Shown: one piece after another, positions 5,327 through 51,403 of the stretch
Numbering within the stretch: position 1 is the stretch's first letter
Layout of the letters: every line of letters starts with the position of its first letter
DNA from: Eubacteriales bacterium
GTDB lineage: Bacteria > Bacillota > Clostridia > Lachnospirales > Lachnospiraceae
Length of the DNA stretch: 59,877 nt
Reading direction: 5' to 3'
Assembly: GCA_030527665.1 (NCBI GenBank)
Contig: JAUNAK010000007.1
Span: forward strand, 1-59,877
Made by a program: the position numbers and the translations under genes
Notes under the pieces: model-generated
Database searches by the model: none
Told to the model about the DNA's origin: nothing
Seen by the model: only the letters and a program-made list of their open reading frames with translations

Positions 5327-6775
5327 TTATCTCATTTGCGGCAGTCCCCAGCGATCGATCTCTTCCTGCGTCGTGTCATCGCCGATCGTAATAAGCTCGG
5401 TTCCTGTCAGTTTTGCAAACAGAATGATATCCGAACGATTCAGTGCAGTGGATACAACGGAATGATGTGCGCCGCCTGCGTAGCACCATGCAGCTGTTCC
5501 GATTGCAAAGTTCGGTTTGTGTCTGTACATCACTCTTGCAACAGGAAGCTTCGGCATAACCTCCGGCTGCTCGACCAGTTCGATATCCGCACAAATAATA
5601 CGGAAATGATCGCCCAGATCCACCAGTGTAACCTGAATACCGTCTCCGGTAACACCATCAAATACCAGACGTGCCGGATCCGCCTTGCCGCCGATTCCCA
5701 GCGGATGTACCTGGATCTCCGGTTTTCCGGCTGCGAAGGATGCCGGTACCTCCAGCATATGGGAAGCCAGCTCCAGCTCTCTTCCCGGAACCATATCATA
5801 GGTATAATCCTCGATAAATCCGGTTGCACCTTCTCTTCCTTCTGCCATCTTCATCAGTACCTGAGAAAATGCGGAGATCTTGTAATCGCCCTCCGGTCCG
5901 AAGCCTACGCCCTTTGCCATCAGGTTCTGTGCAGCCAGACCCGGCAGCTGTTTCATTCCGTGCAGATCCTGGAAAGTATCTGTGAAGGAAGTTGCGCCTG
6001 TTTTTTCCATGAATTTTTCGATTGCCACCTCATAACGAGCCTGCTCGCGTACAGCTTCGATATTATCGGTAGCCATCGTGTATTTGCTTTCATACTCAGC
6101 CATCTTGGCATCGATCTCTGCCTCGGAAGCAGCATCAGCCAGATCAGCGATCTCACCGATTCCCCAGTATTTGATCTCCCAGCCGTATTTGATCTCACAG
6201 CCCAGACGGTTTCCGTCGGTGACAGCAACATCACGCATGTTATTTCCGAATGTTGCTACCAGTGTATTTCTGGAGGAGTCGATTGCCTTTGCCACCTGTG
6301 CAAACTGTCTGATTCTGGCAATTACATCCTCATGTTTGTAAAATCCTGCAACTACCTCATGTGCAATACCCAGTCTGGAAAGAATAAATCCATACTCACG
6401 ATCGCCGTGTGCAGCCTGATTCAGGTTCATGAAGTCCATGTCGATCTCGCTGTACGGCAGTGCCTCATTGGCCTGTGTATGCAGATGCAGAAGCGGCTTG
6501 TTCAGCAGCTGCAGACCTTTGATCCACATTTTTGCCGGTGAGAAGGTGTGCATCCAGGTAATAACACCGACACAGTCATCGTCAACAACGACTTTCTTCA
6601 TATCCTCTACACAGATCCTGGATGTCTCCACGGTCGGAAGCAGCTCGATCGTGATGGTATCTGCCAGCTTCTCATTCAGAAAATCCACCATTTCCTGTGT
6701 ATCTGCCGCAACCTGCTTCAGACATTCCTCTCCGTACAGATCCTGGCTTCCGACGATAAAGTACAATTTGCTCAT
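5327..6775 (-). CDS. araA: L-arabinose isomerase
   Basis: A 482-residue enzyme converting L-arabinose to L-ribulose (EC 5.3.1.4), a Mn-dependent cytoplasmic isomerase. Full family length. The N-terminus MSKLYFIVGSQDLYG, the HTFSPAKMWIKGL motif (about 76-88) and the C-terminal GTAAWCYAGGAHHSV are diagnostic. The ATG follows GGGAGGTTTTGTATT. No kinase (araB), epimerase (araD) or transporter gene is adjacent; the only neighbour is the divergent AraC-type regulator. An imperfect hairpin lies between 5250 and 5275, downstream of the stop. Confidence 0.97.
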   Translation of the reverse strand: MSKLYFIVGSQDLYGEECLKQVAADTQEMVDFLNEKLADTITIELLPTVETSRICVEDMKKVVVDDDCVGVITWMHTFSPAKMWIKGLQLLNKPLLHLHTQANEALPYSEIDMDFMNLNQAAHGDREYGFILSRLGIAHEVVAGFYKHEDVIARIRQFAQVAKAIDSSRNTLVATFGNNMRDVAVTDGNRLGCEIKYGWEIKYWGIGEIADLADAASEAEIDAKMAEYESKYTMATDNIEAVREQARYEVAIEKFMEKTGATSFTDTFQDLHGMKQLPGLAAQNLMAKGVGFGPEGDYKISAFSQVLMKMAEGREGATGFIEDYTYDMVPGRELELASHMLEVPASFAAGKPEIQVHPLGIGGKADPARLVFDGVTGDGIQVTLVDLGDHFRIICADIELVEQPEVMPKLPVARVMYRHKPNFAIGTAAWCYAGGAHHSVVSTALNRSDIILFAKLTGTELITIGDDTTQEEIDRWGLPQMR

Positions 6776-7093: not shown

Positions 7094-7945
7094 ATGCTGG
7101 TTCGTTATGAGCACAGACCTTTTGAGACCGGATGTGAAGTCTGGATCAAAAAATACCGCAAACTGAATAATCTGCCGCACTGGCATTCCGAAGCGGAGCT
7201 GATCACGGTTACAAGAGGGACAGCCCATATCACGGTCGATGGCAAAAGCTATCCTGTCTCTGAGGGTTTCTGTATCTTCGCTGCTGCCGGCTGTGTTCAC
7301 ACCATTTTGCTGGAACCGGAAAGTTCCATTCTGGTTGCACAGTTTGCACGCCCGGGCGGTATACGGATCAACTCCCTGCAGTCGGAGGAAGTTCTGTTTC
7401 CGGATCAGTATCGAATTGCCGAACGAATGAATGCCATTTATGCAGAATTTCGATCTGCAGGCCCCTATATGACCGAACGGGTCAATGCTCTCTCCGTTCT
7501 TCTGCTGACCGATCTGCTGTCCGCAATGCCTTTTACTGAATCGACAGCTCACAGATACGGGATCGAACGGTTCAACTCCATGCTTGCCTATGCCGCAGCA
7601 CACTGCGAGGATTTTGATTACCGGGCGGCGGTTCAGTATATGTACATGTCCGAAGGACATTTTTCCCGCTACTTCAAAGCCCGAACCGGTACAACCTTTA
7701 CCCGATACATGAATGCACTGCGGATCTCCCGTGCCGTCGATCTCCTGCACCGGATGCCATCCATATCCGTCACCGACCTGGCCGCCCAATGCGGCTTCAA
7801 CACGCTGCGGAGCTTCAACCGGGTCTTCAAGGAGATGACCGGTTATACCTGTACGACACTTCCGGAAGATTATACCTTCCATATCCGTTCCCATCCAACG
7901 AACGGCATCGATTTTGATCCCACTCTGGAGTACCTGGAAGAGTAA
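7094..7945 (+). CDS. AraC-family transcriptional regulator with cupin sensor domain
   Basis: A 283-residue regulator. The N-terminal cupin-type sugar-sensing domain (about 20-100) contains NLPHWHSEAELITVTRG and YPVSEGFCIFAAAGCVHTI. The C-terminal AraC DNA-binding domain (about 165-260) has two helix-turn-helix units, the second in TDLAAQCGFNTLRSFNRVFKEMTG. The start follows CCGGAGGAAATACT. It is divergent from araA across about 320 bases, so control of arabinose isomerase is the simplest inference. It could equally be a general AraC regulator. Confidence 0.9.
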   Translation: MLVRYEHRPFETGCEVWIKKYRKLNNLPHWHSEAELITVTRGTAHITVDGKSYPVSEGFCIFAAAGCVHTILLEPESSILVAQFARPGGIRINSLQSEEVLFPDQYRIAERMNAIYAEFRSAGPYMTERVNALSVLLLTDLLSAMPFTESTAHRYGIERFNSMLAYAAAHCEDFDYRAAVQYMYMSEGHFSRYFKARTGTTFTRYMNALRISRAVDLLHRMPSISVTDLAAQCGFNTLRSFNRVFKEMTGYTCTTLPEDYTFHIRSHPTNGIDFDPTLEYLEE

Positions 7946-7968
7946 ACAGAAAAAGCAAAAATCAGGAA

Positions 7969-7997
7969 TCGACCAACCGCTTCCGGCATGATATAGT
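7969..7997 (+). promoter_or_regulatory. candidate hisB promoter
   Basis: TCGACC (7969-7974), a 17-base spacer and TATAGT (7992-7997), 39 bases before the hisB start. Confidence 0.5.
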
Positions 7998-8036
7998 ATA
8001 GACATTAGAATCACATGGAAATACGAGGAATAAAAA

Positions 8037-8627
8037 ATGGAAAAACGTACAGCGACAATTGAGAGAAATACAAAAGAAACAAAGATCAAAGTAACTCTTG
8101 ATCTGGACGGAAGCGGAAAAAGCAGTCTGAATACCGGTATCGGCTTTTTCGATCACATGCTGGACGGTTTTACCCGCCACGGTCTGTTTGATCTGGATGC
8201 TGTCTGCGACGGTGATACCGAAGTAGACTGCCACCACTCCATCGAAGATACCGGCATCGTACTCGGAACCGCTATCAAGGAAGCCGTCGGCGATAAAAAA
8301 GGGATCCGCCGCTACGGAAGCTGCATGCTCCCAATGGACGAAGCTCTCGTTCTCTGTGCCGTTGACCTGAGCGGTCGGCCATATCTGGTATATGATGCCG
8401 AATTCAAAGCTCCCAGCTGCGGAGACATGGATACCCAGATGGCCCGTGAGTTCTTCTATGCCATCAGCTATGCAGCCGGCATGAATCTGCACATCAAAGT
8501 TCTCTACGGCGAGAACGATCACCATATCATGGAAGCTATGTTCAAAGCCTTTGCCAAAGCTCTGGATCAGGCTGTTCAGTACGATCCGCGCATTACGGAT
8601 GTGCTCTCTACAAAGGGAAGCCTGTAA
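8037..8627 (+). CDS. hisB: imidazoleglycerol-phosphate dehydratase
   Basis: A 196-residue enzyme, the usual length for monofunctional HisB (EC 4.2.1.19), which dehydrates imidazole glycerol phosphate in histidine synthesis. The metal-binding histidine motifs are visible: FFDHMLDGFTRHG (about 38-50), DCHHSIEDTGI (about 64-74) and GENDHHIMEAMFKAFAKAL near 160-180. The start follows ACGAGGAATAAAAA. No other his gene is in the window, so the gene is isolated from its pathway here. Confidence 0.97.
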   Translation: MEKRTATIERNTKETKIKVTLDLDGSGKSSLNTGIGFFDHMLDGFTRHGLFDLDAVCDGDTEVDCHHSIEDTGIVLGTAIKEAVGDKKGIRRYGSCMLPMDEALVLCAVDLSGRPYLVYDAEFKAPSCGDMDTQMAREFFYAISYAAGMNLHIKVLYGENDHHIMEAMFKAFAKALDQAVQYDPRITDVLSTKGSL

Positions 8628-8706
8628 TGCATTCAGCCCCAAGACTGTGCACGAATCTTCTTATAGAAGCTATATTTTAAACCGCAAAACTAAAAACTTT
8701 GTTTTT

Positions 8707-8771
8707 AACTGCAAAACGAGAGGATGTTCATCCCCGATCTGTCCGGGCGAACCTCCTCTCGTTTTGTAGTT
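8707..8771 (+). terminator. long hairpin downstream of hisB
   Basis: A perfect 17-bp stem (AACTGCAAAACGAGAGG, 8707-8723, with its complement at 8755-8771) around a 31-base loop. No clean T run follows, so it may be an RNA stabiliser or part of the structured block beyond it rather than a classical terminator. Confidence 0.6.
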
Positions 8772-8860
8772 TATCTCAGTCGAGAAGACTCCCACTTCTG
8801 CAAGTGGTGAGTAATTACAAGATCATCTCTGTGGGAGTCCAATCTCCGACTGAGATAAAC
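8769..8860. repeat. inverted pair of the hairpin motif (copies 2 and 3)
   Basis: The left arm at 8769-8799 (TTTATCTCAGTCGAGAAG, then ACTCCCAC) is the reverse complement of the motif at 1464-1500. The right arm at 8831-8860 (GTGGGAGTCCAATCTC, then CGACTGAGATAAA) repeats it in the forward sense. The arms form an imperfect 30-base inverted repeat with a 31-base centre. Confidence 0.75.
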
Positions 8861-8878
8861 GCTCCGCAGGGATGCACA

Positions 8879-8922
8879 GGGATTCGGATGGGTAGATGTC
8901 AGCTAATACTGACCCGAATCCC
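8879..8922. other. hairpin inside the non-coding block after hisB
   Basis: A 9-bp stem (GGGATTCGG, 8879-8887, with CCGAATCCC, 8914-8922). The block 8628-8995 contains no plausible gene but has at least three stable inverted repeats in a row. This suggests a structured RNA or the remnant of a small transposable element. Confidence 0.5.
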
Positions 8923-8995
8923 GCGCCAAGTTTCGCAGCGCTCGACTTGAATGATATGGATCGATGAATCGCATCCCCAACATTTATTTTAGAGC

Positions 8996-9039
8996 AAAAA
9001 AATCCTGCTGCGGAGACTAACAGGCAGCAGGATTTTTTT
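8996..9039. terminator. bidirectional terminator
   Basis: AATCCTGCTGC / GCAGCAGGATT stem (11 bp), preceded by an A tract and followed by a T tract. It can therefore serve both the rightward hisB side and the leftward 39-codon gene. Confidence 0.9.
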
Positions 9040-9066
9040 ATATGTTATATACAAATATGGTATGAA

Positions 9067-9186
9067 TTACTGTACGTAGAAATCAGAGAAGTGATCTTTG
9101 TTTCCCTCAAACTGCAGATACTCTTTCAGCTCATTTACATTAAATCCACCAAAGCAAACGTTGAATAATTTCTCAATCTTTCTCAT
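9067..9186 (-). CDS. orphan small peptide (39 aa)
   Basis: A 39-codon frame: MRKIEKLFNVCFGGFNVNE, ending DHFSDFYVQ. It starts 8 bases after TAAGGAGAGATGGGTT, an excellent ribosome site. It has its own promoter and terminator, which argues strongly for a real gene. The peptide is aromatic-rich with one cysteine and a central Gly-Gly. No processing protease, transporter or modifying enzyme is near. Function unknown. Confidence 0.65.
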   Translation of the reverse strand: MRKIEKLFNVCFGGFNVNELKEYLQFEGNKDHFSDFYVQ

Positions 9187-9283
9187 AACCCATCTCTCCT
9201 TAATAATTTGATCTTATATATGAATTTGAACCCGAACTTTTGTTGAGTTCAAGGTGTTGTGTTCCTTACATGTATAATCATAT

Positions 9284-9311
9284 ATTATCTTTTGAGATTG
9301 GTTTAGGTCAA
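9284..9311 (-). promoter_or_regulatory. promoter of the 39-codon peptide gene
   Basis: On the minus strand, TTGACC (9306-9311), a 16-base spacer and GATAAT (9284-9289), about 100 bases before the start codon. The dyad GTCAAAA/TTTTGAC around 9307-9341 overlaps its -35 and could be the end of the Nudix transcript or an operator. Confidence 0.5.
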
Positions 9312-9414
9312 AAACCGACCGATGATACGTCGATTTTGACTTTTTATTTCTGATAGAAATTCCTCCATCTTCTGCAGGACGGACAAATGCGCTCCTTCGG
9401 GATCAGCTATTTGA

Positions 9415-9936
9415 TCAGCTGACTGAATATCCCTCCGCATCAAATGCCTGCAGAATTCTCTCATAATGCATAAATCCAGCACTGTTGAATAGCTCTGTGA
9501 TCTCCTTCCAGTCTGCGATCCTGTAGGCAATCGCCTCGGACTCCTGAATGATCACGTCTGCGTCTGTGAAATCCATGTGGAAGTGATAGATATCTACGAA
9601 GTAATTATCGCCTCGTTCCAGATCCACATTGGAATAAGTATAAACGCATCGTCCTTCGGCTTTGCTGACATCCAAACCGGTCTCTTCCTGTACTTCCCGG
9701 CATACCGCCTCAAAGGAACTCTCACCGGCATGCACGCCGCCGCCGGAAACCTCCCAGACACCGGCCGCCCACTTCTTGTCCAGAGAGCGCTGTGTGATCA
9801 GAAAACGATGATCCGGCCGTTCAATGATCGCCAGTACGATCAGCTGGTACTCTCCCTCCTTCAGAAAGCTTCCTTTTCTCGGAAGGGTCCGACCTGTTTT
9901 TTCTTTTTTATCATTATAAATATCAAAGTATTCCAT
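9415..9936 (-). CDS. Nudix hydrolase
   Basis: A 173-residue protein. The ATG at 9936 follows AAGAGG; the frame remains open 51 codons further upstream, but that part is low-quality and lacks a ribosome site. A complete Nudix box at 66-88 fits GX5EX7REUXEEXGU (G66, E72, R80, E81, E84, E85, G87), so it should be a metal-dependent pyrophosphohydrolase. The N-terminus MEYFDIYNDKKEKTGRTLPR resembles the isopentenyl-diphosphate isomerase-like/YfcD group of Nudix enzymes. The substrate cannot be assigned. Confidence 0.92.
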   Translation of the reverse strand: MEYFDIYNDKKEKTGRTLPRKGSFLKEGEYQLIVLAIIERPDHRFLITQRSLDKKWAAGVWEVSGGGVHAGESSFEAVCREVQEETGLDVSKAEGRCVYTYSNVDLERGDNYFVDIYHFHMDFTDADVIIQESEAIAYRIADWKEITELFNSAGFMHYERILQAFDAEGYSVS

Positions 9937-10355
9937 ATGGTACAACCTCTTTTGCTCTGTTCTATGTGTTTGATACACGCGCCTATTATAATAAAAAAAG
10001 CAGGAAACTACAATTGCAACTTGCACGCAAAAAACTGTACCTGAAACTGTACCCAAAAGCTGCATCTGAAGTAACAGAAACTCTCGCACAAAGGGCTCAT
10101 CACGACGCTCTTTTCATCTGAAGCAGCAGAAAGAGTCACATGAGGGCATATTACGGCTCTTTTTTATGAATACGATCACAATACAAGTCCCAATTAAAAA
10201 TTTTATATCAATATTATTTTCGTTCATATTTTGTTTGCAAATTCTTCATTTTACGAACAAGAAGTGCACACAATTCCCCTGTATCATAAAGACCATAGAA
10301 ACAAGCAAGTTTCTTTTCATATGACCCGGGGAACCGGGTATTCTCCTTCCTTATT
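9937..10355. other. intergenic region without a supported gene
   Basis: About 420 bases upstream of the Nudix gene. It holds short direct repeats (CTGTACCTGAAACTGTACC near 10035) and a weak hairpin followed by a T run near 10130-10170. The few open frames lack ribosome sites and family resemblance. Confidence 0.6.
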
Positions 10356-10395
10356 AAAAAACGGAACCGCTATTGCTGGAGCGGTTCCGTTTTTA
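10356..10395. terminator. terminator of the SGNH hydrolase gene
   Basis: AAAAAACGGAACCGC / GCGGTTCCGTTTTTA, a near-perfect 15-bp stem with A and T tracts on both sides, 35 bases beyond the minus-strand stop. Confidence 0.9.
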
Positions 10396-10430
10396 TATGC
10401 AAAATTATCACTTCTCGTGGCAGAAGCCTG

Positions 10431-11324
10431 TCACTCAAACAGCTTCATCAGTACTTTCGCATAGACTTCATGTCCCTCTACCGATGGATGATTGATTCCA
10501 TTGGCCAGCAGTTTTTCCCAGGGACATCCGGCTTTTTCCGCAGCATCCCAGACTGCACGAACATCTGCAAGACATACATTCTCCTCTGCAGCAACTTCCC
10601 GGATCTTTTCCGCCCGAAGAGCGGTTGTCGGCTCAGCTGCAGCATCTCCCAAAAGTGTGTTGGGAAGATCCCCGTTCGGCGTCAGCAGAATGATATCTGC
10701 ATCCGTTGTCTCCTTGATTCTTCTGACCATACTCTGAAGCAGCGTTTTATAATAGTCTGCATCTCCAAAATGCGTATCATCCCAGTTCAGCGATCCATTG
10801 ATCAGCACCAGATCCGGACTGTAACGAAGTACATCCCTCTCCAGACGGTCCATCATGGAAATCAGATGATCCCCGGCAATTCCCGAATTAATAACCGAGA
10901 CCGATGTATATTCATATTTATCGATCAAAGCTGTTCTGAATTTTTCAATGTAGCTTTCTCTTGCATCATAAACTTCAACAGCAGGTACGCCCCCCATCTT
11001 CTCTATGATCTCTTTGATCCGTTCCGGACCTTCTCCTGCACCGATTGCAGCAAAAATACTGCCCATTTTCGCTTTGATTTCTTCCGTCATCAATGCTTCA
11101 AAATGTCCTGCAGTGACCGAGTCTCCGATGGCCGCGATCAGCGGATTCTTTTTTTCAAGCCCGTCTTCATCCGCAAAGCCAAATACAGCTCCGGCCATTC
11201 CGGTATTTTCTTTCATTTTCCGAATAAACCGCTCCGGTCTTGCCGGACTTGGATTCACAAACTCCTCTGCGCATTTCAAAAAAATCTCCTGATACGGCTG
11301 TGCGATTCTGAATGTTGTTTTCAT
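10431..11324 (-). CDS. SGNH/GDSL-family hydrolase
   Basis: A 297-residue esterase/lipase-like enzyme without signal peptide. The catalytic blocks are visible: IAAIGDSVTAGHFE (block I serine, about 64-77), NSGIAGDHL (block II), LVLINGSLNWDD (block III-like) and GINHPSVEGHEVYAKVL (block V Asx-His, about 275-291). The first 60 residues form an extra N-terminal segment not usual in minimal SGNH enzymes. The ATG follows CCAGGAGGATAAT. Likely a carbohydrate or acyl-ester deacylase. Monocistronic. Confidence 0.85.
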   Translation of the reverse strand: MKTTFRIAQPYQEIFLKCAEEFVNPSPARPERFIRKMKENTGMAGAVFGFADEDGLEKKNPLIAAIGDSVTAGHFEALMTEEIKAKMGSIFAAIGAGEGPERIKEIIEKMGGVPAVEVYDARESYIEKFRTALIDKYEYTSVSVINSGIAGDHLISMMDRLERDVLRYSPDLVLINGSLNWDDTHFGDADYYKTLLQSMVRRIKETTDADIILLTPNGDLPNTLLGDAAAEPTTALRAEKIREVAAEENVCLADVRAVWDAAEKAGCPWEKLLANGINHPSVEGHEVYAKVLMKLFE

Positions 11325-41055: not shown

Positions 41056-41787
41056 TCACCCCAGGATCTCACCCTCAACAGAGATGGTCACAACCTGCCA
41101 CGGAATAAACTTTCCACTGTCCTTCAGTGCATTCTTTGCTGCCCATTCCAGACCGCCGCAGCACGGCACTTCCATCCGAACGATCGTTACGCTCTTGATA
41201 TCATTCTGTGCAATGATCTGTGTCAGCTTTTCACTGTAATCTACACTGTCCAGTTTCGGACATCCGACAAGAACTACTCTGCCCTTGATAAAGTCCTCAT
41301 GAAAACGAGCATAGCTGTAGGCTGTACAGTCTGCAGCAATCAGCAGATTTGCACCGTCAAAATACGGAGCATGGATCGGTGCCAGCTTGATCTGTACCGG
41401 CCAGTTCTGCAGCTGCGATCTATTTACAGCTGTCTGCTCTGCAGCAACCGGAATCGGAGCAGCTGCAGCCGGCTGATTCAGCACACGCGCACGAGAACCC
41501 GGGCATCCTCCGCCCGGATGGAGCGCACTGCCGTTTGCTTCTGCAGCTTTTTTCTGCTGATTTGCCTTAACCGCTGCCTCATCATAGGCAGCAGCCTCTC
41601 TCTGTACAAAGGTAATGGCACCTGTCGGACACTCCGGCAGACAGTCACCCATACCGTCACAATAATCATCACGAAGCAGTTTTGCTTTTCCGTTGACCAT
41701 GCCGATCGCACTCTCATGGCAGGCCGATGCACAGGCACCGCAGCCGTTGCATTTTTCTTCATCTATCTGAATGATCTGTCTAATCAT
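41056..41787 (-). CDS. two-[4Fe-4S] ferredoxin-domain protein
   Basis: 243 residues from the ATG at 41787 (site GATGGAGGAAGAGAT). The N-terminus is a bacterial dicluster ferredoxin: CNGCGACASACHESA (about 13-27) and CDGMGDCLPECPTGA (about 43-57). A low-complexity linker (about 70-120) leads to a C-terminal domain with CTAY, GCPKLD and VPCCGGLEW cysteines, which could hold a further cluster. It probably shuttles electrons in the cytoplasm. Its upstream region carries the same TTCCAACAAA decamer (41943-41952) as the Crp/hcp operator, suggesting a shared regulon. Confidence 0.88.
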   Translation of the reverse strand: MIRQIIQIDEEKCNGCGACASACHESAIGMVNGKAKLLRDDYCDGMGDCLPECPTGAITFVQREAAAYDEAAVKANQQKKAAEANGSALHPGGGCPGSRARVLNQPAAAAPIPVAAEQTAVNRSQLQNWPVQIKLAPIHAPYFDGANLLIAADCTAYSYARFHEDFIKGRVVLVGCPKLDSVDYSEKLTQIIAQNDIKSVTIVRMEVPCCGGLEWAAKNALKDSGKFIPWQVVTISVEGEILG

Positions 41788-42085
41788 ATCTCTTCCTCCA
41801 TCTGATCCCATATACCTGTTTATTATCTCCACCCAGAGCCCCTTAGAACCCGTGATTCACCTCGATGAACGAATCCTCCTGCGAAGCTTTCTTTTTCTGA
41901 TATGCACATCATACCTCCGGATTCCTGTTCCGTATGTTGTAATTCCAACAAAACAAAGAAAAAGTCAAAATGCTTTCATAAAGTAGAATTTCCACTCCCT
42001 TTCCTGTATACTGATAACCAGTAAGATGTCGGGACAAAGTATTGCTCCGCATCACTTCAACCATCAATTCCAGGAGGAAAAAACA

Positions 42086-43656: not shown

Positions 43657-43892
43657 GAGTCGGCGGAGCCTCCCCAAAACAAAATAGAGCCGGGTATCGT
43701 ACACATGGCTGCGCGACTTGCGTCATGTTTCCGTCCGCTGTGAAGATACGCTTTCCCCGGGTCTCGACTGTCTGAGCTTGCGAGTTTCGAGACCCGGGGA
43801 TAAAAAAGCGTGTCTGAACAGCAGGAAACATAGCCCGAGCGCTGACATGCGTACGATACCCGGCTCTCCAGTTTCTACCGCTCCGCCGACTC
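43657..43892. mobile_element. 236-bp nested foldback (hairpin) element
   Basis: Nested perfect inverted repeats: GAGTCGGCGGAGC (43657-43669 with 43880-43892), AGAGCCGGGTATCGTAC (43686-43702 with 43851-43867), ATGTTTCC (43725-43732 with 43824-43831) and TCCCCGGGTCTCGA (43754-43767 with 43787-43800). The whole stretch can fold into one long stem. It lies between an Rpn remnant and the ABC gene, and its right end contains that gene's stop codon. It codes for nothing visible. It may be a MITE-like foldback transposon or a large RNA structure. Confidence 0.75.
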
Positions 43893-45639
43893 AGGGAAGT
43901 AATTTCTGCGCATGGATCAACGCCGCATACTCCCCATCCACCTTCATCAACTCTTCATGTGTTCCCAGCTCAATGATCTTTCCCCCTTCAATTACCGCGA
44001 TCCTGGAAGCATTCCGCACGGTCGACAGCCGATGTGCGATCACGATCGTCGTTCTTCCCTTCGACAGTTCCTCAAAAGTCTTCTGGATCTTTGCCTCGGT
44101 CACACTGTCCAAGGCGGAAGTCGCTTCATCGAGGATCAGGATCGGCGGATTCTTCAGGAAGTTCCTTGCAATGGAGATCCGCTGTTTCTGACCGCCGGAC
44201 AGCAGTACGCCCCGTTCTCCCACGTAGGTATCAAAGCCGTCCTGCATGCTGCAGATATCCTCATAGACCTCTGCTGCCTTTGCTGCTCTTTCGATTTCCT
44301 CCTGCGTGGCCTCCGGTTTTCCGTATCGGATATTATCGGCAACCGATCCCGGAAACAGGAACACATCCTGCTGTACCACACCGATCGCCTTGTGCAGGGA
44401 TTCCTGTGTCACCTGGCGGATATCCCTGCCGTCGATCCGAATACTTCCCTCCGTTGCTTCATAGAACCTTGGAATCAGCTGACTCAATGTCGTTTTTCCG
44501 CCTCCGGAGGAACCTACAAAGGCGATCGTTTCACCGGCTTTGATCTCCAGAGACACTTCTTCCAGCACTTCTTTTCCTTCTCTGTAAGAAAAGCTTACAT
44601 GCTCGATGTCAATTGCACCTTTCACCTCGGACAGCTCAGCTGCATCCTTCGCATCTGCGATCTCCGGATCCAGACGCATGACCTCGGTAAAACGGTGCAG
44701 ACCGGCCATGCCGTTTGCCACCAGCTCCATCGTCTGTGTCAGCTTCCGCATCGGATTCAGAAAAGTCGCAATGTACAGACTGAAAGTGATCAGATCAATG
44801 ACCGTCAGCTGTTCTTTCATGATCAGCAGACCTCCGACACTGATCACGGCCAGCTGCAGCAGACAGAGTGAAAACTCCATACCTGCGTTAAACTGTCCCA
44901 TAACCTTATGAAACGCATATTTCGATCTTCCGTATGCAACATTTGCCGTATCGAATTTTCCAAACTCCTGCTCTTCATTGGCAAAGGCCTTTGCCGTGCG
45001 CATGCCGGACAGACCGGATTCAAACTCGGCATTCAGAGCCGCTGTTTTTGCCTTTACCACACGGGAAGTATCCCGCATATGCCGCCGCATTTTCCAGAAG
45101 ATCAGCAGCATGACCGGTACCATGACAGCAAGAACAAGTGCCAGCCGCCACTGGATCGTGAACATAATGATGAGTGCACCCAGAATCGTTGTAACCGAGA
45201 TCAGAATGTCCTCCGGTGCATGATGTGAAAACTCGGTAACATCAAACAGATCCGTCGTCAGGGAACTCAGCTGCTGTCCCACCCGTGTCCGGTCATAATA
45301 GCTGCAGCTCAGTCTCTGCAGCTGTCGAAACATATCTCTTCGCATATCCGTCTCGACCAGCACACCGAAGCGGTGTCCCCAGTACACATTGATAAAATGG
45401 AAGATTGACCGCAGAATATAGGCTGCCAGCAGAACCGCCATAACAATAAAAAATGTACGGTATGCCTGCTCCGGAAGGAGGGTATACATACACGCTCTGG
45501 ATATATATGGAAAAGCCAGATCGATCGCGGCAATTCCGGCCGCACATAGCAGATCCAGCAGAAACAGTCCCTGGTGGGGAACAAAATAACCGGCAAGGAT
45601 ACGTAAGTCTCCCTGCGTTTTAAAATTCTTTTCCTGCAT
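43891..45639 (-). CDS. ABC exporter (fused membrane and ATPase domains)
   Basis: 582 residues from the ATG at 45639; a TTG at 45660 is an alternative start, and neither has an ideal ribosome site. The N-terminal type-I exporter domain has six helices (about 15-310). The ATPase domain (about 335-580) has Walker A FVGSSGGGKTT, signature VLLSGGQKQR and Walker B ILILDEATSALD, then the H-loop IVIAHRLST. Such half-transporters act as dimers, exporting lipids, peptides or drugs. It is the third minus-strand gene after the nitrogenase-like pair, 87 bases beyond the NifK-like stop, so co-transcription is possible. Its stop codon lies inside the foldback element. Confidence 0.92.
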   Translation of the reverse strand: MQEKNFKTQGDLRILAGYFVPHQGLFLLDLLCAAGIAAIDLAFPYISRACMYTLLPEQAYRTFFIVMAVLLAAYILRSIFHFINVYWGHRFGVLVETDMRRDMFRQLQRLSCSYYDRTRVGQQLSSLTTDLFDVTEFSHHAPEDILISVTTILGALIIMFTIQWRLALVLAVMVPVMLLIFWKMRRHMRDTSRVVKAKTAALNAEFESGLSGMRTAKAFANEEQEFGKFDTANVAYGRSKYAFHKVMGQFNAGMEFSLCLLQLAVISVGGLLIMKEQLTVIDLITFSLYIATFLNPMRKLTQTMELVANGMAGLHRFTEVMRLDPEIADAKDAAELSEVKGAIDIEHVSFSYREGKEVLEEVSLEIKAGETIAFVGSSGGGKTTLSQLIPRFYEATEGSIRIDGRDIRQVTQESLHKAIGVVQQDVFLFPGSVADNIRYGKPEATQEEIERAAKAAEVYEDICSMQDGFDTYVGERGVLLSGGQKQRISIARNFLKNPPILILDEATSALDSVTEAKIQKTFEELSKGRTTIVIAHRLSTVRNASRIAVIEGGKIIELGTHEELMKVDGEYAALIHAQKLLP

Positions 45640-45726
45640 TTCTTTGTTTTTTCGCTCCAAACTCTCTGATTTTATGTTTGTCTCCCGTGTGCAGATTCTC
45701 TTACCAGATCTCTCTGCACACGCTTT

Positions 45727-47127
45727 TTATAATTTGGACATCAGCCCGTTCAGCACCTGCTCTACAAGGAACATGGCACCGTGAACCCCCATCTGGGTCT
45801 TCGGGATCACATCGGTATAGCCCATCCCCGGGTTATTGATCTCAATGCCGCAGAAGACATGATTTCCCTTTTCCAGCAGTTTCAGCTGTGCAATGGTATT
45901 GGCATCGCCGAAAACAAGCTCTGCCTCCTCCTTCGGCACCTCCCGCATTTTCAGATAGCTGCGCAGGAAGCTTCCGAATGCCCGTTTCTGACCTTCACTT
46001 CCTGCAACAGCAAAGGATGCCTCATTCGGAAGTCCGCACATATCATAGATATCCCGGATCTTCCCGTAGCACACCGCTCTTGCCCTTCGGCTGTCTTCGG
46101 CAAAAGCTTTGTTCTCTGCCTGCAGCAGACTGCAGATATCGCCGATGATCCGCTCAGCCGCCGCAAAACCGACCGGCAGCCCCGGGCAGCTATAAAACGG
46201 CTGTCCATATGTTTCCTGCAGATACTGTGCAGCAGCCCGTCCGCGGGCTGTGTCAATGACCACATTCAGATCCGCTTCCGGTATGCGAAGCAGCTCTTCC
46301 ATCGTATTTCCCGAACACAGACAGCAGTTTACCTCAATGCCGCACAGCCCCAGCATACGCTTCCACTCATTCCGGTCACCTTCCGCATAACGATCCCAGA
46401 TTGAGGAACCGATCAGGTTTACCGATTTTCTTCGCTCGTTCTGTTCCCCCACCGTTATTTCCGACTGCCCCGGAGCACTGCCGCTTTGCTCGGCAGCAGA
46501 GCCGCCGCATTCGGTCGGAATAAGCAGATTCTCAGCTGCCGGACTCACATACGGATTTTCCTTCAGATTTCGCGCTTTTAATTTTCCGCCCATCTGCTTC
46601 AGCAGTTCCACCACGGCATCCTCATAGCCATTGTCAAACTCCATGGAAAAACCCGGTGACTCCAGCATGATACAGTTTCTGTCAGGCAGTATCCTTTTGA
46701 CGAGCTCCTGCAGATGATCGCCAATGAGACAGGCACCGGGAGAATTGATGACAGCAAGCAGGTCAAAGGACACGTGCTCCCGTATATATACCAGAGCCGC
46801 CTCCACCTTCTCCGCTGTCCCATAGACGTAATCCTGTCCATCCAGTGAGGTACTCGGCACCCGCGGCTGGCGGAAAAACCAGTCATTCAGATAATTGTAA
46901 TCCACCGGAACCTTCCGACCGGTACTTTTCTCCGGCAGATACAGTGCGGGACGCATCGTCAAAAACTGGGAGGTCGTGCTGTGATAAAACTTGCAGCCCA
47001 TCGGACCGTTCAGAAGCACCATGGCCCCGTGAATGCCTTCCATGGCAAAGATCATTCCGGTCAGACTGTCCGGACGAATGCATTCCCTTTTATCCAAAGT
47101 ACTGCTCAAACAATTGTTTATCATCCT
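45727..47127 (-). CDS. nitrogenase-like component 1 subunit, NifK/NifE-N type
   Basis: 466 residues from the ATG at 47127, which has AAAGGAGG 8 bases upstream. The frame is open further, but that part lies within the preceding gene's repetitive tail. Nitrogenase component-1 fold. P-cluster-type cysteines: Cys15 (RECIRPDSLTG), Cys44 (LNGPMGCKFYHS) and Cys132 (NSPGACLIGD), spaced as in NifK. A Glu/Gly/Ser-rich insertion (about 203-237) replaces compact core sequence. The gene starts 38 bases before the NifH-NifD stop, so translation is coupled. It likely forms a heterotetramer with the NifD part of that protein. Confidence 0.88.
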   Translation of the reverse strand, partial: RMINNCLSSTLDKRECIRPDSLTGMIFAMEGIHGAMVLLNGPMGCKFYHSTTSQFLTMRPALYLPEKSTGRKVPVDYNYLNDWFFRQPRVPSTSLDGQDYVYGTAEKVEAALVYIREHVSFDLLAVINSPGACLIGDHLQELVKRILPDRNCIMLESPGFSMEFDNGYEDAVVELLKQMGGKLKARNLKENPYVSPAAENLLIPTECGGSAAEQSGSAPGQSEITVGEQNERRKSVNLIGSSIWDRYAEGDRNEWKRMLGLCGIEVNCCLCSGNTMEELLRIPEADLNVVIDTARGRAAAQYLQETYGQPFYSCPGLPVGFAAAERIIGDICSLLQAENKAFAEDSRRARAVCYGKIRDIYDMCGLPNEASFAVAGSEGQKRAFGSFLRSYLKMREVPKEEAELVFGDANTIAQLKLLEKGNHVFCGIEINNPGMGYTDVIPKTQMGVHGAMFLVEQVLNGLMSKL

Positions 47128-49675
47128 GCCAGCCTCCTTTCCCGGTATTATTTTCTGACGCATTTTTTCCTTCTGTGTAATTTTCGTCCGCAGTATTTCC
47201 TGACACAGCATCACTTGCCGCAGCCTTTCCTGACACAGCATTTTCTGTCGCAGCGTTTTGAGCCGCCTCAGTTTCATCCGCAGCATTTCCTGCCGCATCG
47301 TTTTGAACTGTCTCATTTCCATCCGCAGTGTATTCTGCCGCAGCATTTTCTGCTGCTTTTTTCTTCAGCAGCTCCACCCAGTGCTCCAGTACATGCAGAC
47401 CGGATCGGAAGCCGATTACCTGCGTCATGGACAGAGAATCCTTGACAAAATCCCCCTCTCCGATCAGGGATACATAATTGGACAGTACGATGTCCGCCTT
47501 TGTCTTCTGTATCTGTTCCTGAATGATCGGCACGCTGACTTCCTCCGTCGCAAGCCTCTGGAACCTATCATGATTGGAGATATGCAGAGGCATCTGCAGA
47601 TAGTTCAGAACACCGATCCATGTCACCTCCATGCCCAGGTCATCTGCCGTCTCCAGCAGCCAGTCCATATTGGTGTTGATGGTGGTCATCAGAAGCCGTT
47701 TGCCCTTCAGGTACGGACGCAGCTTTTCCAGTTCTTCCCGATATCGTGCCTCTTCTTTTTCCAGAATTGCCGGTACACGATCTACGCAGTCAAATTCCTC
47801 TGCGATCTCATACAGCCACCGCTTCGTCTCCCGAAAACCGACCGGCAGGCAGCTCTGTGCAAACTGACAGTGGTACTTTTCCTCCAGCCACGTCTGCAGT
47901 TCTCTACCGTCCGGACTGTCTGCTGCCAGAATATTCAGCGGTGCAGCCAGAAAGTTTTTCATCCGGTCACAGGTCGTATCTCCCAGAAACCTGGCATTGA
48001 TCCGGATATCCAGCTGTTTCAGCAGGTTCTCCACAATACGATAGTTGACTTCCACATTGTTGGAGACACCTGCTTCATTAATCAGATTGACACAGCGTCC
48101 GGACGGCTTCACCTCCGGATCGATCAGCTTCTCAGCAATGCGATGCAGAGAAAGACGTATTCCCTCCATATAATCTCCGCCGATCACGCCGTCTGCTTCC
48201 ATAATAATGACCGGCATCTCCGGCGTGGACAGTTCTTCCAGGCTTCTGACATCATCTCCTATGATTCCGCTGACGCAGGAACTGATAACGATAACGGCAC
48301 CCGGCTTCTCTTTCCTCGCTTCCAAAACTGCCTCACGGACCTTCTCTGTTCCTCCGAACACCGCCTCTGTCTGTCCGATCTCCGTACAGGAAAAATTCGG
48401 ACTGATGGCAGAAGGCATCAGAATGCCCCGGTTGAACAGATTTTTTCTGCCGGAGGAGCTGATATTCTGCCAGGTAAAAAAGGCACAGGACCGGGGCGAA
48501 TGGGCAATGATATGCGCATCCGTCAGATGCACCGCACTGGTCGCTGCTCCGTTAAAGGCACAGCCGTACAGAGTCTTTCTGACTGTCCTCTGTCCAGCAT
48601 CCGTCTGCCATCTTTTTTCCGTGTTCTCTGCGGTCTGCCCCTTGAACCGCTCTGCATTATCCGCAGCATCCTTCCATGCCGCCTTTTCCTTTCTGCCTGT
48701 CTGCAGAGTATCCCGCTCATTCCTTCCCGCCTGTCCGGTACTACCTGCCTGCAGAACCGCCTGTCCGCTGCCTCCTGCCTGCAGAACCGCCTGCTCATTT
48801 CTTCCCGTTTCCAGAACCGCCTGTCCGGTCTTCCCCGGCTGCAGAGCCGCCTGCCCATTCCTGCCCGGCTGCAGCACTACCTGCTCCAATTCATCATCAC
48901 TCAGCGGCTTTGCGGCGTACAGCGGAAGATCTCCGCAGATCCGGTCTGCAAGAGAGGCAAATACCTCCTGCACTTCCGGAAAGCCGTCCAGTTCCATTGC
49001 CGTACATTTTTCCCGCTCGGCGATTGCAAAGGCTTCGCTTCGGGGAACCCTTGCCACAACCGGAAGATCGACAGCCGCAGCAAAGCGCATCACCCGCTCT
49101 TCTTCATCTGCCAGCTTCCTCTCGTTGAAAATAATTCCCGCAACACGTTTATAGATATCCCTATCATAATTGCAGATGCCCCGAAGAATGTTGTTGGCTG
49201 CATACAGCGCCATATATTCTCCGCTGGTCACCAGAAAAACTGCATCGGCATACTCCCGCCGAACCGGAACCGCAAAACCACCGCAGACAACATCGCCCAG
49301 TACATCATAAACAATCGTATCGTAGGCTTCCTTTGCGTGATGGATCTCCAGAAATTCAAAAGCAGAAATAATTCCCCTGCCGGCACAGCCCACACCCGGT
49401 TTCGGTCCCCCGGCCTCTACACAGCCGATTCCGTACGCACCGGTGTACAGAACTTCCTCCAGTTTTCCCTGATGTTTATCATGATCCTTTAAATAATCCA
49501 GAACCGTTTGTATCTCTTTCCCGTGCATCAGCAGCCGGGTGGAATCGTGCTTCGGGTCACAGCCGATCTGAAGCACACGCACGCCCTGTTTTGCCAGTGC
49601 AGTAGTCACATTTGCACTGATCGTGGATTTTCCGATCCCGCCTTTTCCATAGACGGCAATTTCCATCGATTTCAC
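47090..49675 (-). CDS. NifH-NifD fusion: nitrogenase-like Fe protein joined to component 1 subunit
   Basis: 861 residues; GTG start at 49675 behind AAAGGAGAAACGCAAA. Residues 1-265 are a complete NifH/BchL-type Fe protein: P-loop GKGGIGKST (10-18), switch GCDPKHDST (38-46), cluster ligands Cys97 (GVGCAGRGI) and Cys131 (DVVCGGF). Residues 266-335 are a repetitive Gln/Gly linker. Residues 365-775 are NifD-like, with Cys372 (YGCAFNGA), Cys397 (PRSCAFF) and Cys467 (SSCVSGIIGDD) matching the P-cluster ligands. The position of NifD's FeMo-cofactor cysteine reads NILAADS, so that ligand is absent. The C-terminal 90 residues are an Ala/Asn/Glu repeat tail. Predicted: ATP-driven, low-potential reductase on an unknown substrate; not a nitrogen-fixing enzyme. 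Confidence 0.9.
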   Translation of the reverse strand: MKSMEIAVYGKGGIGKSTISANVTTALAKQGVRVLQIGCDPKHDSTRLLMHGKEIQTVLDYLKDHDKHQGKLEEVLYTGAYGIGCVEAGGPKPGVGCAGRGIISAFEFLEIHHAKEAYDTIVYDVLGDVVCGGFAVPVRREYADAVFLVTSGEYMALYAANNILRGICNYDRDIYKRVAGIIFNERKLADEEERVMRFAAAVDLPVVARVPRSEAFAIAEREKCTAMELDGFPEVQEVFASLADRICGDLPLYAAKPLSDDELEQVVLQPGRNGQAALQPGKTGQAVLETGRNEQAVLQAGGSGQAVLQAGSTGQAGRNERDTLQTGRKEKAAWKDAADNAERFKGQTAENTEKRWQTDAGQRTVRKTLYGCAFNGAATSAVHLTDAHIIAHSPRSCAFFTWQNISSSGRKNLFNRGILMPSAISPNFSCTEIGQTEAVFGGTEKVREAVLEARKEKPGAVIVISSCVSGIIGDDVRSLEELSTPEMPVIIMEADGVIGGDYMEGIRLSLHRIAEKLIDPEVKPSGRCVNLINEAGVSNNVEVNYRIVENLLKQLDIRINARFLGDTTCDRMKNFLAAPLNILAADSPDGRELQTWLEEKYHCQFAQSCLPVGFRETKRWLYEIAEEFDCVDRVPAILEKEEARYREELEKLRPYLKGKRLLMTTINTNMDWLLETADDLGMEVTWIGVLNYLQMPLHISNHDRFQRLATEEVSVPIIQEQIQKTKADIVLSNYVSLIGEGDFVKDSLSMTQVIGFRSGLHVLEHWVELLKKKAAENAAAEYTADGNETVQNDAAGNAADETEAAQNAATENAVSGKAAASDAVSGNTADENYTEGKNASENNTGKGGWQDDKQLFEQYFG

Positions 49676-49945
49676 TTTGCGTTTCTCCTTTGTTTTATTC
49701 TTTTAAGCCCTAATTGCAATACGCTTTTCTCTTCCGTTCATTTGCTCCTGATGAAACGTTTTGCAGCCATTTCCTCTAAATGTGCTGTACTAGCTTCAGG
49801 CTTCCCTTCGGTCGCTTTGCTGTGTATACGTTCGACTACGAAAATCGAAGATTTTCTGTCTCACTTATCGCCATGTGCATCTGCATAGTTCGTACTTACC
49901 TCGACTTTCGCCTTCGGCTCTGCAGACGTAAGTGCTCATCCTAAC
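49676..49945. other. intergenic region upstream of the nitrogenase-like operon
   Basis: Contains a weak candidate promoter on the minus strand near 49690-49725 (TTGCAA, then TAAAAC). From 49780 to 49940 the sequence is unexplained and non-coding, with several CTTCGG/CGAAAATCGAAG-like mini-dyads. No gene or riboswitch could be recognised. Confidence 0.5.
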
Positions 49946-49948
49946 ACA

Positions 49949-49976
49949 AATCGCAGAGGGAAATCCCTCTGCGATT
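49949..49976. terminator. hairpin terminator downstream of the AgcS gene
   Basis: A perfect 13-bp stem (AATCGCAGAGGGA / TCCCTCTGCGATT) with a 2-base loop, lacking a long T run. It isolates the nitrogenase-like operon from the symporter gene. Confidence 0.75.
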
Positions 49977-50017
49977 GATGATAGCATTTATTCTGTTTCG
50001 GTGTCAAAAATCCCGAC

Positions 50018-51403
50018 TCATTTACCTGTTTTTTCAAAATACGCTTTTGTCAGCTTTACAACTGTTCCGGACAGCAGGAACAGGGCAATCAGGTTGGGGA
50101 TCGCCATCAGTCCGTTGAAGGTATCGGCGATATCCCACAGCAGTCCCAGGTCGATGGTTGCACCAAGGATCGCAACGAAGGAATAGATAACCAGGAAAGG
50201 ACGAACCACTTTATCGGTGGAGAACAGGAACTCCGCACAGCGGGAACCGTACAGACCCCAGCCGATGATCGTTGAAAAGGCAAAGCAGCAAAGAGCTACC
50301 GCAGTAAAGAGGGATACCCAGCTGCCGTAGGTTGCCGTGAATCCGGAAATCGTCAGCTCCGCACCTGCTGCCTGTCCGTAGGTAATGGATGTACCGCTGC
50401 AGAGAATAACCAGTGCAGTCAGTGTACAGATAACGATGGTATCCGCAAATACTTCGAAGATACCGAAGAGTCCCTGTGCAACCGGTTCCTTTGTATCTGC
50501 ACATGCATGTGCGATCGATCCGGTACCAAGGCCGGCCTCATTGGAGAAGATACCGCGAGATACACCTTTTTTCAGGCTCAGGAACATGCTTCCGACAATT
50601 CCGCCGGTAAATGCCTGCGGAGAAAAAGCGCCTGCGAAAATCGAAGTAAATACTGCCGGAATATTACCGATATGCATGATTACAACACCGATTGCAAGAA
50701 TGACATACAGCAGTGCCATAAACGGAACCAGCTTCTCGGTTACGGTACCGATACGTTTGATTCCTCCCAGAAGAACCATGGCTACCAGAAGGGCGATAAT
50801 AATACCGATTGCCAGATTCAGCTTCGACAGATCAAACTGTGCACCGAACTGGAGCAGTGCGGAATCAATGGCGGTCGTGATCGTATTTACCTGTGTGGCA
50901 TTACCGGTACCAAAAACAGTCAGCACGCCGAACAGGGAATACAGAAAGGCAAGCCAGGTCCATTTCTTTCCCAGACCGTTGCGGATGTAATACATCGGTC
51001 CGCCTACATAGTCTCCCTGTTTGTTTCTCTCACGGAAGTGAACCGCAAGGGTAACCTCCGAGAACTTGGTTGCCATACCCAGAAGTGCCGAGCACCACAT
51101 CCAGAATACCGCTCCCGGTCCGCCGATGGCAATCGCTCCGGCAACACCGGCAATGTTTCCGGTTCCTACCGTTGCCGCCAGTGCGGTACAAACGGCCTGG
51201 AAGGGAGTCATCGAACCGTCCGATGCATCCTTTTTTGCAAACATACGGCCGATGGTGGATTTCAGTGCCACCTTAAACTTGCGGATCTGAATGAAACGGG
51301 TCCGAATACTCAGAAGAAGGCCGACACCGATGATGCAGATCATAGCCGGCACACCCCAGATAAAACCATTTACCAAACTGTTGATTTGTGCAATTTTTTC
51401 CAT
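50018..51403 (-). CDS. sodium:alanine/glycine symporter (AgcS family)
   Basis: A 461-residue membrane transporter with about 11 helices. The family signature TPFQAVCTALAATVGTGNIAGVAGAIAIGGPGAVFWMW (about 65-101) and GGPMYYIRNGLGKKW are unmistakable. It imports small neutral amino acids with Na+. The site GGAAGTAGGGTAG precedes the ATG. It lies 22 bases downstream of the tyrosine-kinase gene, so transcription may extend from the exopolysaccharide operon. Confidence 0.95.
   Translation of the reverse strand: MEKIAQINSLVNGFIWGVPAMICIIGVGLLLSIRTRFIQIRKFKVALKSTIGRMFAKKDASDGSMTPFQAVCTALAATVGTGNIAGVAGAIAIGGPGAVFWMWCSALLGMATKFSEVTLAVHFRERNKQGDYVGGPMYYIRNGLGKKWTWLAFLYSLFGVLTVFGTGNATQVNTITTAIDSALLQFGAQFDLSKLNLAIGIIIALLVAMVLLGGIKRIGTVTEKLVPFMALLYVILAIGVVIMHIGNIPAVFTSIFAGAFSPQAFTGGIVGSMFLSLKKGVSRGIFSNEAGLGTGSIAHACADTKEPVAQGLFGIFEVFADTIVICTLTALVILCSGTSITYGQAAGAELTISGFTATYGSWVSLFTAVALCCFAFSTIIGWGLYGSRCAEFLFSTDKVVRPFLVIYSFVAILGATIDLGLLWDIADTFNGLMAIPNLIALFLLSGTVVKLTKAYFEKTGK

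Follow-up and report, generated by a model that had tools for sequence, protein, structure and literature searches.

Apart from nitrogenase itself, the nitrogenase family is known to include the tetrapyrrole reducers DPOR, COR and CfbCD, and its other jobs extend over the reduction of protochlorophyllide, chlorophyllide and Ni-sirohydrochlorin diamide (PMC7242693), methylthio-alkane reduction (PMC12552129) and, as described in 2024, isethionate assimilation (PMC11423573). In 2012 Dos Santos et al. mentioned fused NifH/NifE-like proteins accompanied by NifN-like proteins, giving them as 'data not shown' and filtering them out of their tree (PMC3464626); a 'fused nifH/nifE' is likewise mentioned for Ca. 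Methanomassiliicoccus intestinalis, a Methanomassiliicoccales genome (PMC4153887). Here we analyse a gene pair of this kind, in which an Fe-protein (H) domain is fused to a NifD/E-type (D) domain and followed by a NifK-type (K) gene (hereafter HD-K), starting from a contig of 59,877 nucleotides ('the window') of a Lachnospiraceae genome (Eubacteriales bacterium, GCA_030527665.1, JAUNAK010000007.1). The architecture itself has been on record since 2012 and was left unstudied; new here is the B12 context of the fused class, with cobalamin riboswitches crowding round the fused nitrogenase-like genes and B12 genes standing nearby at part of the loci. Among the matches listed in our literature search (titles and abstract openings, with subscription journals mostly uncovered) there was no published link of the fused family to B12. 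We tentatively propose, giving this reading not quite an even chance, that the HD-K pair is an ATP-driven reductase with a corrinoid as its substrate.

The fused gene and its partner subunit

The fusion gene occupies 47090–49675 on the minus strand as a single open frame of 861 amino acids (aa), and is preceded by the ribosome-binding site AAAGGAG and a GTG start (49673–49691, minus strand; direct reading of the sequence). Its NifH-type Fe-protein domain (48869–49666, minus strand; residues 4–269, Pfam PF00142 Fer4_NifH, E 9.8e-92) carries the P-loop GKGGIGKS and the [4Fe-4S] ligands C97 and C131, and the NifD/E-type catalytic domain follows at 47369–48562 (minus strand; residues 372–769, Pfam PF00148 Oxidored_nitro, E 4.2e-59). 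The K-type subunit (45727–47124, minus strand; PF00148, E 9.6e-40) overlaps the fusion gene by 35 bp. Its start is most likely the ATG at 47124, giving 465 aa, because AAAGGAGG stands before that ATG at 47133–47140 (direct reading) and the longer frame of 539 aa runs through low-complexity repeats out of phase. Between the H and D domains lies a low-complexity linker (48581–48868, minus strand; residues 270–365) with tandem repeats at 48727–48874, and the C-terminal tail (47093–47368, minus strand) holds a repeat-rich insertion followed by the family end motif WxxDxxLFxxYF, which 50 of 72 fusions show, by a strict pattern, among their last 30 residues. In the window copy both the linker and the tail are swollen by tandem repeats of 15 to 60 bp: between the last residue of the H model and GCAF the linker spans 99 aa, about twice the median of 46 (lengths measured in 69 of the 72 fusions).

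To place this gene we scanned 84,980 species genomes with an alignment as query and retained the best 80 of the 120 relatives obtained; these and the window make up 81 loci (six of the 80 had already been met in genus and family scans). An earlier scan with the single protein as query had given 11 pattern matches, none of them a relative. H and D are in one frame at 75 of the 81 loci, among them that on the complete Formimonas chromosome NZ_CP017634, and the K gene follows at 79, the other two running into a contig edge, an arrangement that agrees with the fused NifH/E plus NifN class. The preliminary description of the window, made from its sequence alone, had allowed that the fusion might be a sequencing artefact; the in-frame fusions at 75 loci dispose of this and led us to reject an assembly artefact. 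We regard an assembly error or a decaying gene as having a negligible probability: separate H and D frames in L098, L108 and L114 (the last split by one stop in the linker, by eye) and broken H starts at two of the 75 in-frame loci (L113 and L137) are what speaks for it, against the 75 loci and the cluster cysteines kept in all 72 full-length fusions. The remaining three loci are cut by a contig end.

The hosts span Bacillota, Actinomycetota, Chloroflexota and a Treponema. They include metagenome-assembled genomes (MAGs) of Lachnospiraceae and Oscillospiraceae, Acetitomaculum ruminis, Sporobacter termitidis, Anaerovirgula multivorans, Clostridium tetanomorphum, Eubacterium minutum, Marinisporobacter, Syntrophomonas, Candidatus Formimonas warabiya, Coriobacteriales, a Chloroflexales MAG and a Treponema MAG. 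The gut-anaerobe setting seen in the window does not hold for the family, since Syntrophomonas, Anaerovirgula, Marinisporobacter, Formimonas and Chloroflexales carry the fusion too. Within the genus of the window, one of 15 other genomes has the fusion (G003). In a sample of the family, with scoring confined to the top two candidates of each genome, 121 of 397 genomes have a match at 1e-10, mostly separate H genes with 40–54% identity, and there are six fusions among the matches listed (G000, G244, G073, G169, G218 and G231). In a phylum-wide sample the D profile matches at 1e-40 in 10 of 398 genomes, with the fusion whole, as judged by frame length, in four (G000, G666, G774 and G486) and cut across two contigs in G772.

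Cysteine conservation was counted over 72 full-length fusions and 72 aligned K proteins. C39, C85, C97, C131, C372, C397 and C467 are invariant in all 72 fusions; the search for relatives required the stretch round C372 or that round C467 (patterns LxGCAFNGA and S[ST]C[VP][SA]GIIG), so that these two were in part selected, and C97, C131 and C397 were not. The cysteines that the preliminary description named for the Fe-protein domain (97 and 131) and for the NifD-type domain (372, 397 and 467) are at the places it gave. Its claim that K has three such cysteines of its own (15, 44 and 132) did not survive the alignment: C44 (C118 in the long frame) is the sole conserved cysteine, present in 72/72, whereas position 15, in an insertion absent from 70 of the proteins, is a cysteine in one and position 132 in three. 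Where the K-type chain of 9d9u has its third P-cluster cysteine, the profile alignment shows an invariant proline in K. Thus, of the three P-cluster cysteines per chain of a nitrogenase, D has all three and K conserves one. The position of the FeMo-cofactor (FeMo-co) cysteine reads NILAADS, as reported before, and is a cysteine in none of seven aligned members. By profile alignment the D domain matches nitrogenase alpha and NifE chains, with the three cysteines in common. As three cysteines of D and only C44 of K are conserved, the pattern predicts a 3+1 [4Fe-4S] site at the D/K interface rather than a P-cluster. Such a 3+1 pattern is found in NifEN and COR, and in DPOR with Asp in place of the one cysteine. 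Other nitrogenase-like clades also have K/N partners with one conserved cysteine (Dos Santos et al., PMC3464626).

All NCBIfam scores of H, D and K are below the curated cut-offs. The H domain reaches 308 of 402 bits with CfbC, 305 of 394 with NifH and 210 of 345 with BchL; the best component-1 model for D is NifE (133 of 505 bits); K scores 69 of 490 with BchB; and the CfbD model gives D 28 and K 33 of 268 bits. Scores thus stay under the BchL/N/B and BchX/Y/Z cut-offs of DPOR and COR. Nor is K closely similar to MarDK: its profile matches chain C of 9d9u, which together with 9fmg we take to be methylthio-alkane reductase, at E 1.5e-32, as compared to 9.5e-111 for the K of L058. An H tree of 82 rows places the 38 fused domains together on one side of a single branch, with modest support (Shimodaira–Hasegawa-like approximate likelihood ratio test, SH-aLRT, 83). 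In a joint D/K tree of 65 rows, the 23 fused D domains form one clade and the 22 partner K proteins another (SH-aLRT 100 for each), and both are distinct from the NifDK, MarDK-like, BchNB and Hyp-linked rows; the separate-gene K of L171 adjoins the partner K clade (SH-aLRT 86). The phylogenetic check suggested in the preliminary description therefore gives H, D and K places of their own in trees built without CfbCD, BchXYZ, NifEN or labelled group I–VI references, the placement relative to those groups being by hidden Markov model scores only. One fusion event would be the simplest reading of these trees.

In the 2.95 Mb window genome, which is 94% complete so that an absence is no proof, PF00148 has no match at E 0.001 beyond the D domain and K, and no nifB exceeds its cut-off (best 26.5 as compared to 343.65 bits); the lack of nifB and nifE/N noted for the window thus extends to the genome.

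Cobalamin riboswitches and B12 genes around the pair

Thirteen cobalamin riboswitches (RF00174) lie in nine of the 80 loci scanned with Rfam (1.168 Mb in all, L085 being left out and the window being represented by L003, 45593–51175): one each in L091, L119, L125, L127, L128, L147 and L151, two in L139 and four in L141. With 353 such sites in the 152.6 Mb of 57 host genomes as the background, 2.7 would be expected. Seven of the 80 loci have a riboswitch within 2 kb of the pair against 0.74 expected (P 1.3e-5), and five have one within 400 bp against 0.15 expected. L127 and L141 each have a riboswitch immediately upstream of the fusion gene and in the same orientation, in L127 followed by what looks by eye like a terminator hairpin and in L141 at a distance of 268 bp, behind btuR; in L119 the riboswitch heads a run made up of a TIM-barrel gene and the HD-K pair. 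Furthermore, a single AdoCbl-II riboswitch was found, in L148. The TIM-barrel gene of L119 (845–1882), which lies between the riboswitch and the pair, encodes a xylose-isomerase-like protein with a relative in L139 (16774–17790; 37% identity), and both adjoin cobalamin riboswitches. L119 also has a fluoride riboswitch (6167–6240), perhaps that of a crcB-like frame at 5678–6097 (by eye).

The most telling gene context is that of L168 (G486), a locus not in the Rfam-scanned set. Here one co-directional run with gaps of at most 18 bp holds the energy-coupling factor (ECF) T gene, the ECF ATPase, an S-layer homology (SLH) protein that weakly matches an alpha-alpha toroid, a DUF4430 protein, HD, K and the ECF S gene; the T gene, itself without a Pfam match, shares 40% identity with the CbiQ-type T of L141. 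DUF4430 is also found at the C-terminus of vertebrate transcobalamins (PMC4350170), and for this reason the operon looks like one for corrinoid uptake. Homologues of genes of this run flank the pair in L114, L115, L125, L128, L139 and L141. Other B12 genes occur as well: in L091 CbiG follows 25 bp behind K, with CbiF and HemL 2–4 kb away on the opposite strand, and the flanks of L119 hold HemL, CbiL and a CfbA/CbiX-like protein (below its cut-off). BtuR/CobO lies near the pair in L141 and, by 50% identity, in L114; CbiB-like and CobD-like genes are found in L133 and a CobT-like gene in L151 (query names by eye).

Counting B12-specific features in the fetched flanks of 82 loci (the 80 relatives, L166 and L168), we found at least one in 14: L091, L114, L115, L119, L125, L127, L128, L133, L139, L141, L147, L148, L151 and L168. 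As controls we used 24 loci with separate H, D and K genes (445 kb), two of which have a B12- or heme-type gene (L059 and L176); a B12-box pattern, which recovers 10 of the 13 Rfam sites of the fused set, occurs in none of the 24. The features are concentrated in the 40 loci whose D is mostly 32–42% identical to that of the window (13/40), and these more distant loci taken alone differ from the controls (13/40 as compared to 2/24, P 0.034). Cobalamin riboswitches are present in all 57 of the host genomes (56 over the cut-off), which are a chosen subset of the hosts of the 81 loci (seven by G handle, 50 through loci). In favour of the link, CobS is found in 50 of these 57 genomes as compared to 247 of 394 of the window family (Fisher P 8e-5); CbiJ is found in 45 of 57 as compared to 228 of 397. 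The window genome itself encodes CbiJ, CobS and a PduO-type adenosyltransferase, and has five cobalamin riboswitches and no BtuR.

Several observations weigh against a corrinoid as the substrate. Among the 42 loci L072–L113, whose D is 45–69% identical to that of the window, only one has a B12 feature; no B12 gene was seen in the window near its pair; and Rfam (45593–51175) found no riboswitch near it, nor did a simpler pattern find one anywhere in the window. Across all loci the excess over the controls is not significant, be it for any B12 feature (14/82 as compared to 2/24, Fisher P 0.52), for B12 genes alone (11/82 as compared to 2/24, P 0.73) or for riboswitch loci (9/80 as compared to 0/24, P 0.11, with the controls scanned by the less sensitive pattern). 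The distance limits for the riboswitch counts were picked after the data had been seen, and stricter filters in the genome count may make the background density too low. Within 400 bp, the riboswitches of L125 and L128 face a divergent gene and that of L139 lies behind K. As for the hosts, the comparisons for CobS and CbiJ mix taxa and incomplete MAGs; G412, G434 and G437 have neither CbiJ nor CobS. An adenosyltransferase is present in only 41 of the 57 (BtuR in 34, the PduO/EutT type in 19), which speaks against a Co(I) step. Since the comparisons with the small set of 24 controls are not significant overall, it is the riboswitch density test that carries the case for the B12 link.

The survey of neighbours for a conserved substrate gene, called for in the preliminary description, came back empty: clustering over the 81 loci finds nothing but K in more than seven, the seven being ABC ATPases. 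The pair often has no close co-directional neighbour, the upstream gene being on the opposite strand or more than 100 bp off in 45 of the 81 loci and the downstream gene in 46. In the window an ABC exporter-like gene (43891–45660, minus strand) lies 66 bp downstream of K in the same direction; such genes occur within seven genes of the pair in five of 81 loci, and as their place differs among these five, the gene probably stands outside the HD-K system. About 4 kb downstream of the pair, and co-directional with it, is a small iron-sulphur protein (41056–41832, minus strand) with ferredoxin-like CxxCxxCxxxC motifs (by eye), which could be an electron donor for HD-K.

The scans also turned up other arrangements. 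One is a different nitrogenase-like system, found in L062 and, judged by the size and order of their frames, in L063, L064, L060, L067 and L177–L179: here H, D and K are encoded separately, frequently in duplicate, and surround hypF-hypD-hypE (in L062 hypF by TIGR00143 with 726 bits, hypD and hypE by eye). NifHEN-like genes together with hydrogenase maturation genes are described for Coprococcus catus (PMC3464626), and a set of the L062 type might build or employ an Fe(CN)2CO-type centre. In L069 (10622–13396) and L182 (8354–10792) separate H genes adjoin frames of 924 and 812 aa, respectively, which match the D and K profiles weakly and are perhaps D-K fusions. L127, a Peptococcaceae MAG, has a further two frames behind HD-K, the second of which matches K weakly, and then an H gene standing alone (7492–10828), perhaps a second, unfused nitrogenase-like set.

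Proposed function and rival explanations

The preliminary description had read the pair as a low-potential reductase that is driven by ATP, has its Fe protein permanently tethered and acts on an unknown substrate. Such a reductase fits the sequence features, and its domains form clades of their own; the 3+3 cysteine count finds no support. The substrate can be narrowed towards corrinoids, because the riboswitches and some of the neighbour genes point that way. The tetrapyrrole substrates of DPOR, COR and CfbCD also count in favour of a corrinoid (PMC7242693). In the mechanism we propose, two H-D chains would join two K chains in a D2K2 core, and the H domains tethered to this core would pair with each other. 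Ferredoxin or flavodoxin would deliver electrons to the [4Fe-4S] cluster of H, from which ATP hydrolysis would drive them singly to another [4Fe-4S] cluster, coordinated between D and K by three cysteines of the former and one of the latter. A cobalt corrinoid would sit in the cavity filled by FeMo-co in nitrogenase and take these electrons, going most likely from Co(II) to Co(I), the substrate for an adenosyltransferase. With one H per D, the H2 dimer would serve one half of D2K2 at a time, unless cores share H domains. The potential to be overcome is low: about −0.6 V for free cobalamin. For some corrinoids the Co(II)/Co(I) couple lies at about −0.5 V (PMC12176620). That Co(II) to Co(I) is itself the reduction step we consider somewhat unlikely. 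It is possible, though doubtful, that HD-K is the first ATP-driven corrinoid reductase of the nitrogenase family, with its Fe protein built in, and that it supplies Co(I) for adenosylation in the B12 synthesis and salvage of strict anaerobes.

The same B12 context could have other causes. The pair may reduce a C=C bond in the ring of a corrin or other tetrapyrrole precursor, as a stand-in for CbiJ, for instance, or in an unassigned step; this is the strongest of the competing explanations and in our judgement an unlikely one. Ring chemistry is what DPOR, COR and CfbCD do (PMC7242693), and the pair lies within a hem/cbi region in L091 and beside one in L119; set against this, the pair of L168 sits with uptake-type rather than synthesis genes, and the presence of CbiJ itself in 45 of the 57 host genomes leaves no room for a general CbiJ substitute, a role that we rejected on this ground. 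There are hosts with CobS and no CbiJ, among them G447 (Eubacterium minutum, with the locus on the 1.9 Mb record CP016202). A further candidate, improbable by our estimate, is a B12-sparing enzyme, that is, a low-potential reductase of an unrelated substrate that is switched on when B12 is short and replaces a B12-dependent one. B12 riboswitches also govern B12-independent isozymes, and at many loci the pair has neither a close co-directional neighbour nor a B12 gene; on the other side, the ECF/DUF4430 run of L168 and the BtuR, CbiG, CbiB-, CobD- and CobT-like neighbours suit corrinoid supply.

Less probable again is a reactivase of corrinoid enzymes, which would carry out ATP-driven repair of the cobalt in methyltransferases, mutases or dehalogenases. 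Many of the hosts are acetogens, syntrophs or demethylating anaerobes, and a DUF1638 gene follows K in L131. ATP-driven corrinoid activation does exist (PMC12176620), but beside the pair a gene for a corrinoid protein or a methyltransferase is found, like any gene other than K, at no more than seven of the 81 loci, and control by a B12 riboswitch suits supply better than repair. Finally, the best match of D to NifE (133 bits) and that of K to a chain of 9d9u/9fmg (E 1.5e-32) would be expected of a nitrogenase, a NifEN-like scaffold for FeMo-co or a methylthio-alkane reductase. We hold any of these to be very improbable, given the missing FeMo-co cysteine, the lack of a NifB over the cut-off and of a second DK pair in the window genome, a K without the P-cluster cysteines, the separate clades and scores far below the cut-offs.

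If the corrinoid reading is right, a corrinoid-reducing branch would tie the nitrogenase family to vitamin B12 and provide a candidate reductant for the step before adenosylation in anaerobes, among them gut, rumen and termite bacteria; a review credits the reduction of Co before adenosylation to free flavin (PMC7242693). The tethered Fe protein, with one H per D and not two, would also make a natural test case for half-of-sites electron delivery, because only one of the two docking sites of D2K2 could be filled at a time.

Comparison with known systems

The fused class of Dos Santos et al. shares with HD-K an H fused to a D/E-type domain, a K/N-type gene that follows, and Firmicutes among its hosts; the passages that mention the fused proteins give them no cysteine pattern, context or function (PMC3464626), and their identity with the present clade is presumed. 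DPOR (BchL-BchNB) and COR (BchX-BchYZ) resemble HD-K in being ATP-driven, with a [4Fe-4S] cluster at the D/K interface and no FeMo-co, features that are predicted for HD-K, and Cys44 of K presumably takes the position of the Asp ligand of BchB and the Cys of BchZ. They differ in that their Fe protein is separate and their hosts are photosynthetic, and HD-K scores far below their cut-offs. CfbCD, the Ni-sirohydrochlorin a,c-diamide reductase, has in CfbC the best match to H and a tetrapyrrole substrate, as is proposed for HD-K; however, CfbD is one homomeric chain (PMC12552129) whereas HD-K has both D and K, and the scores of HD-K stay under the CfbCD cut-offs. With NifEN and NifDK, whose alpha and NifE chains are the best alignment partners of D, HD-K has three cysteines in common, but it lacks the cofactor cysteine, nifB and the P-cluster ligands of K, and its Fe protein is fused.

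Outside the nitrogenase family, PduS is flavin-based and, like CobR and the free-flavin corrin reductases, takes corrinoids from Co(II) to Co(I), the step proposed for HD-K. CobR is likewise flavin-based and unrelated to the family (PMC7242693). The activation of methyl-CoM reductase uses an ABC-type ATPase and McrC/Mmp proteins in place of NifH/D/K homologues, but as an ATP-driven complex with nitrogenase-type clusters that takes F430 from Ni(II) to Ni(I) it is the nearest working analogy to the reaction proposed here (PMC12176620).

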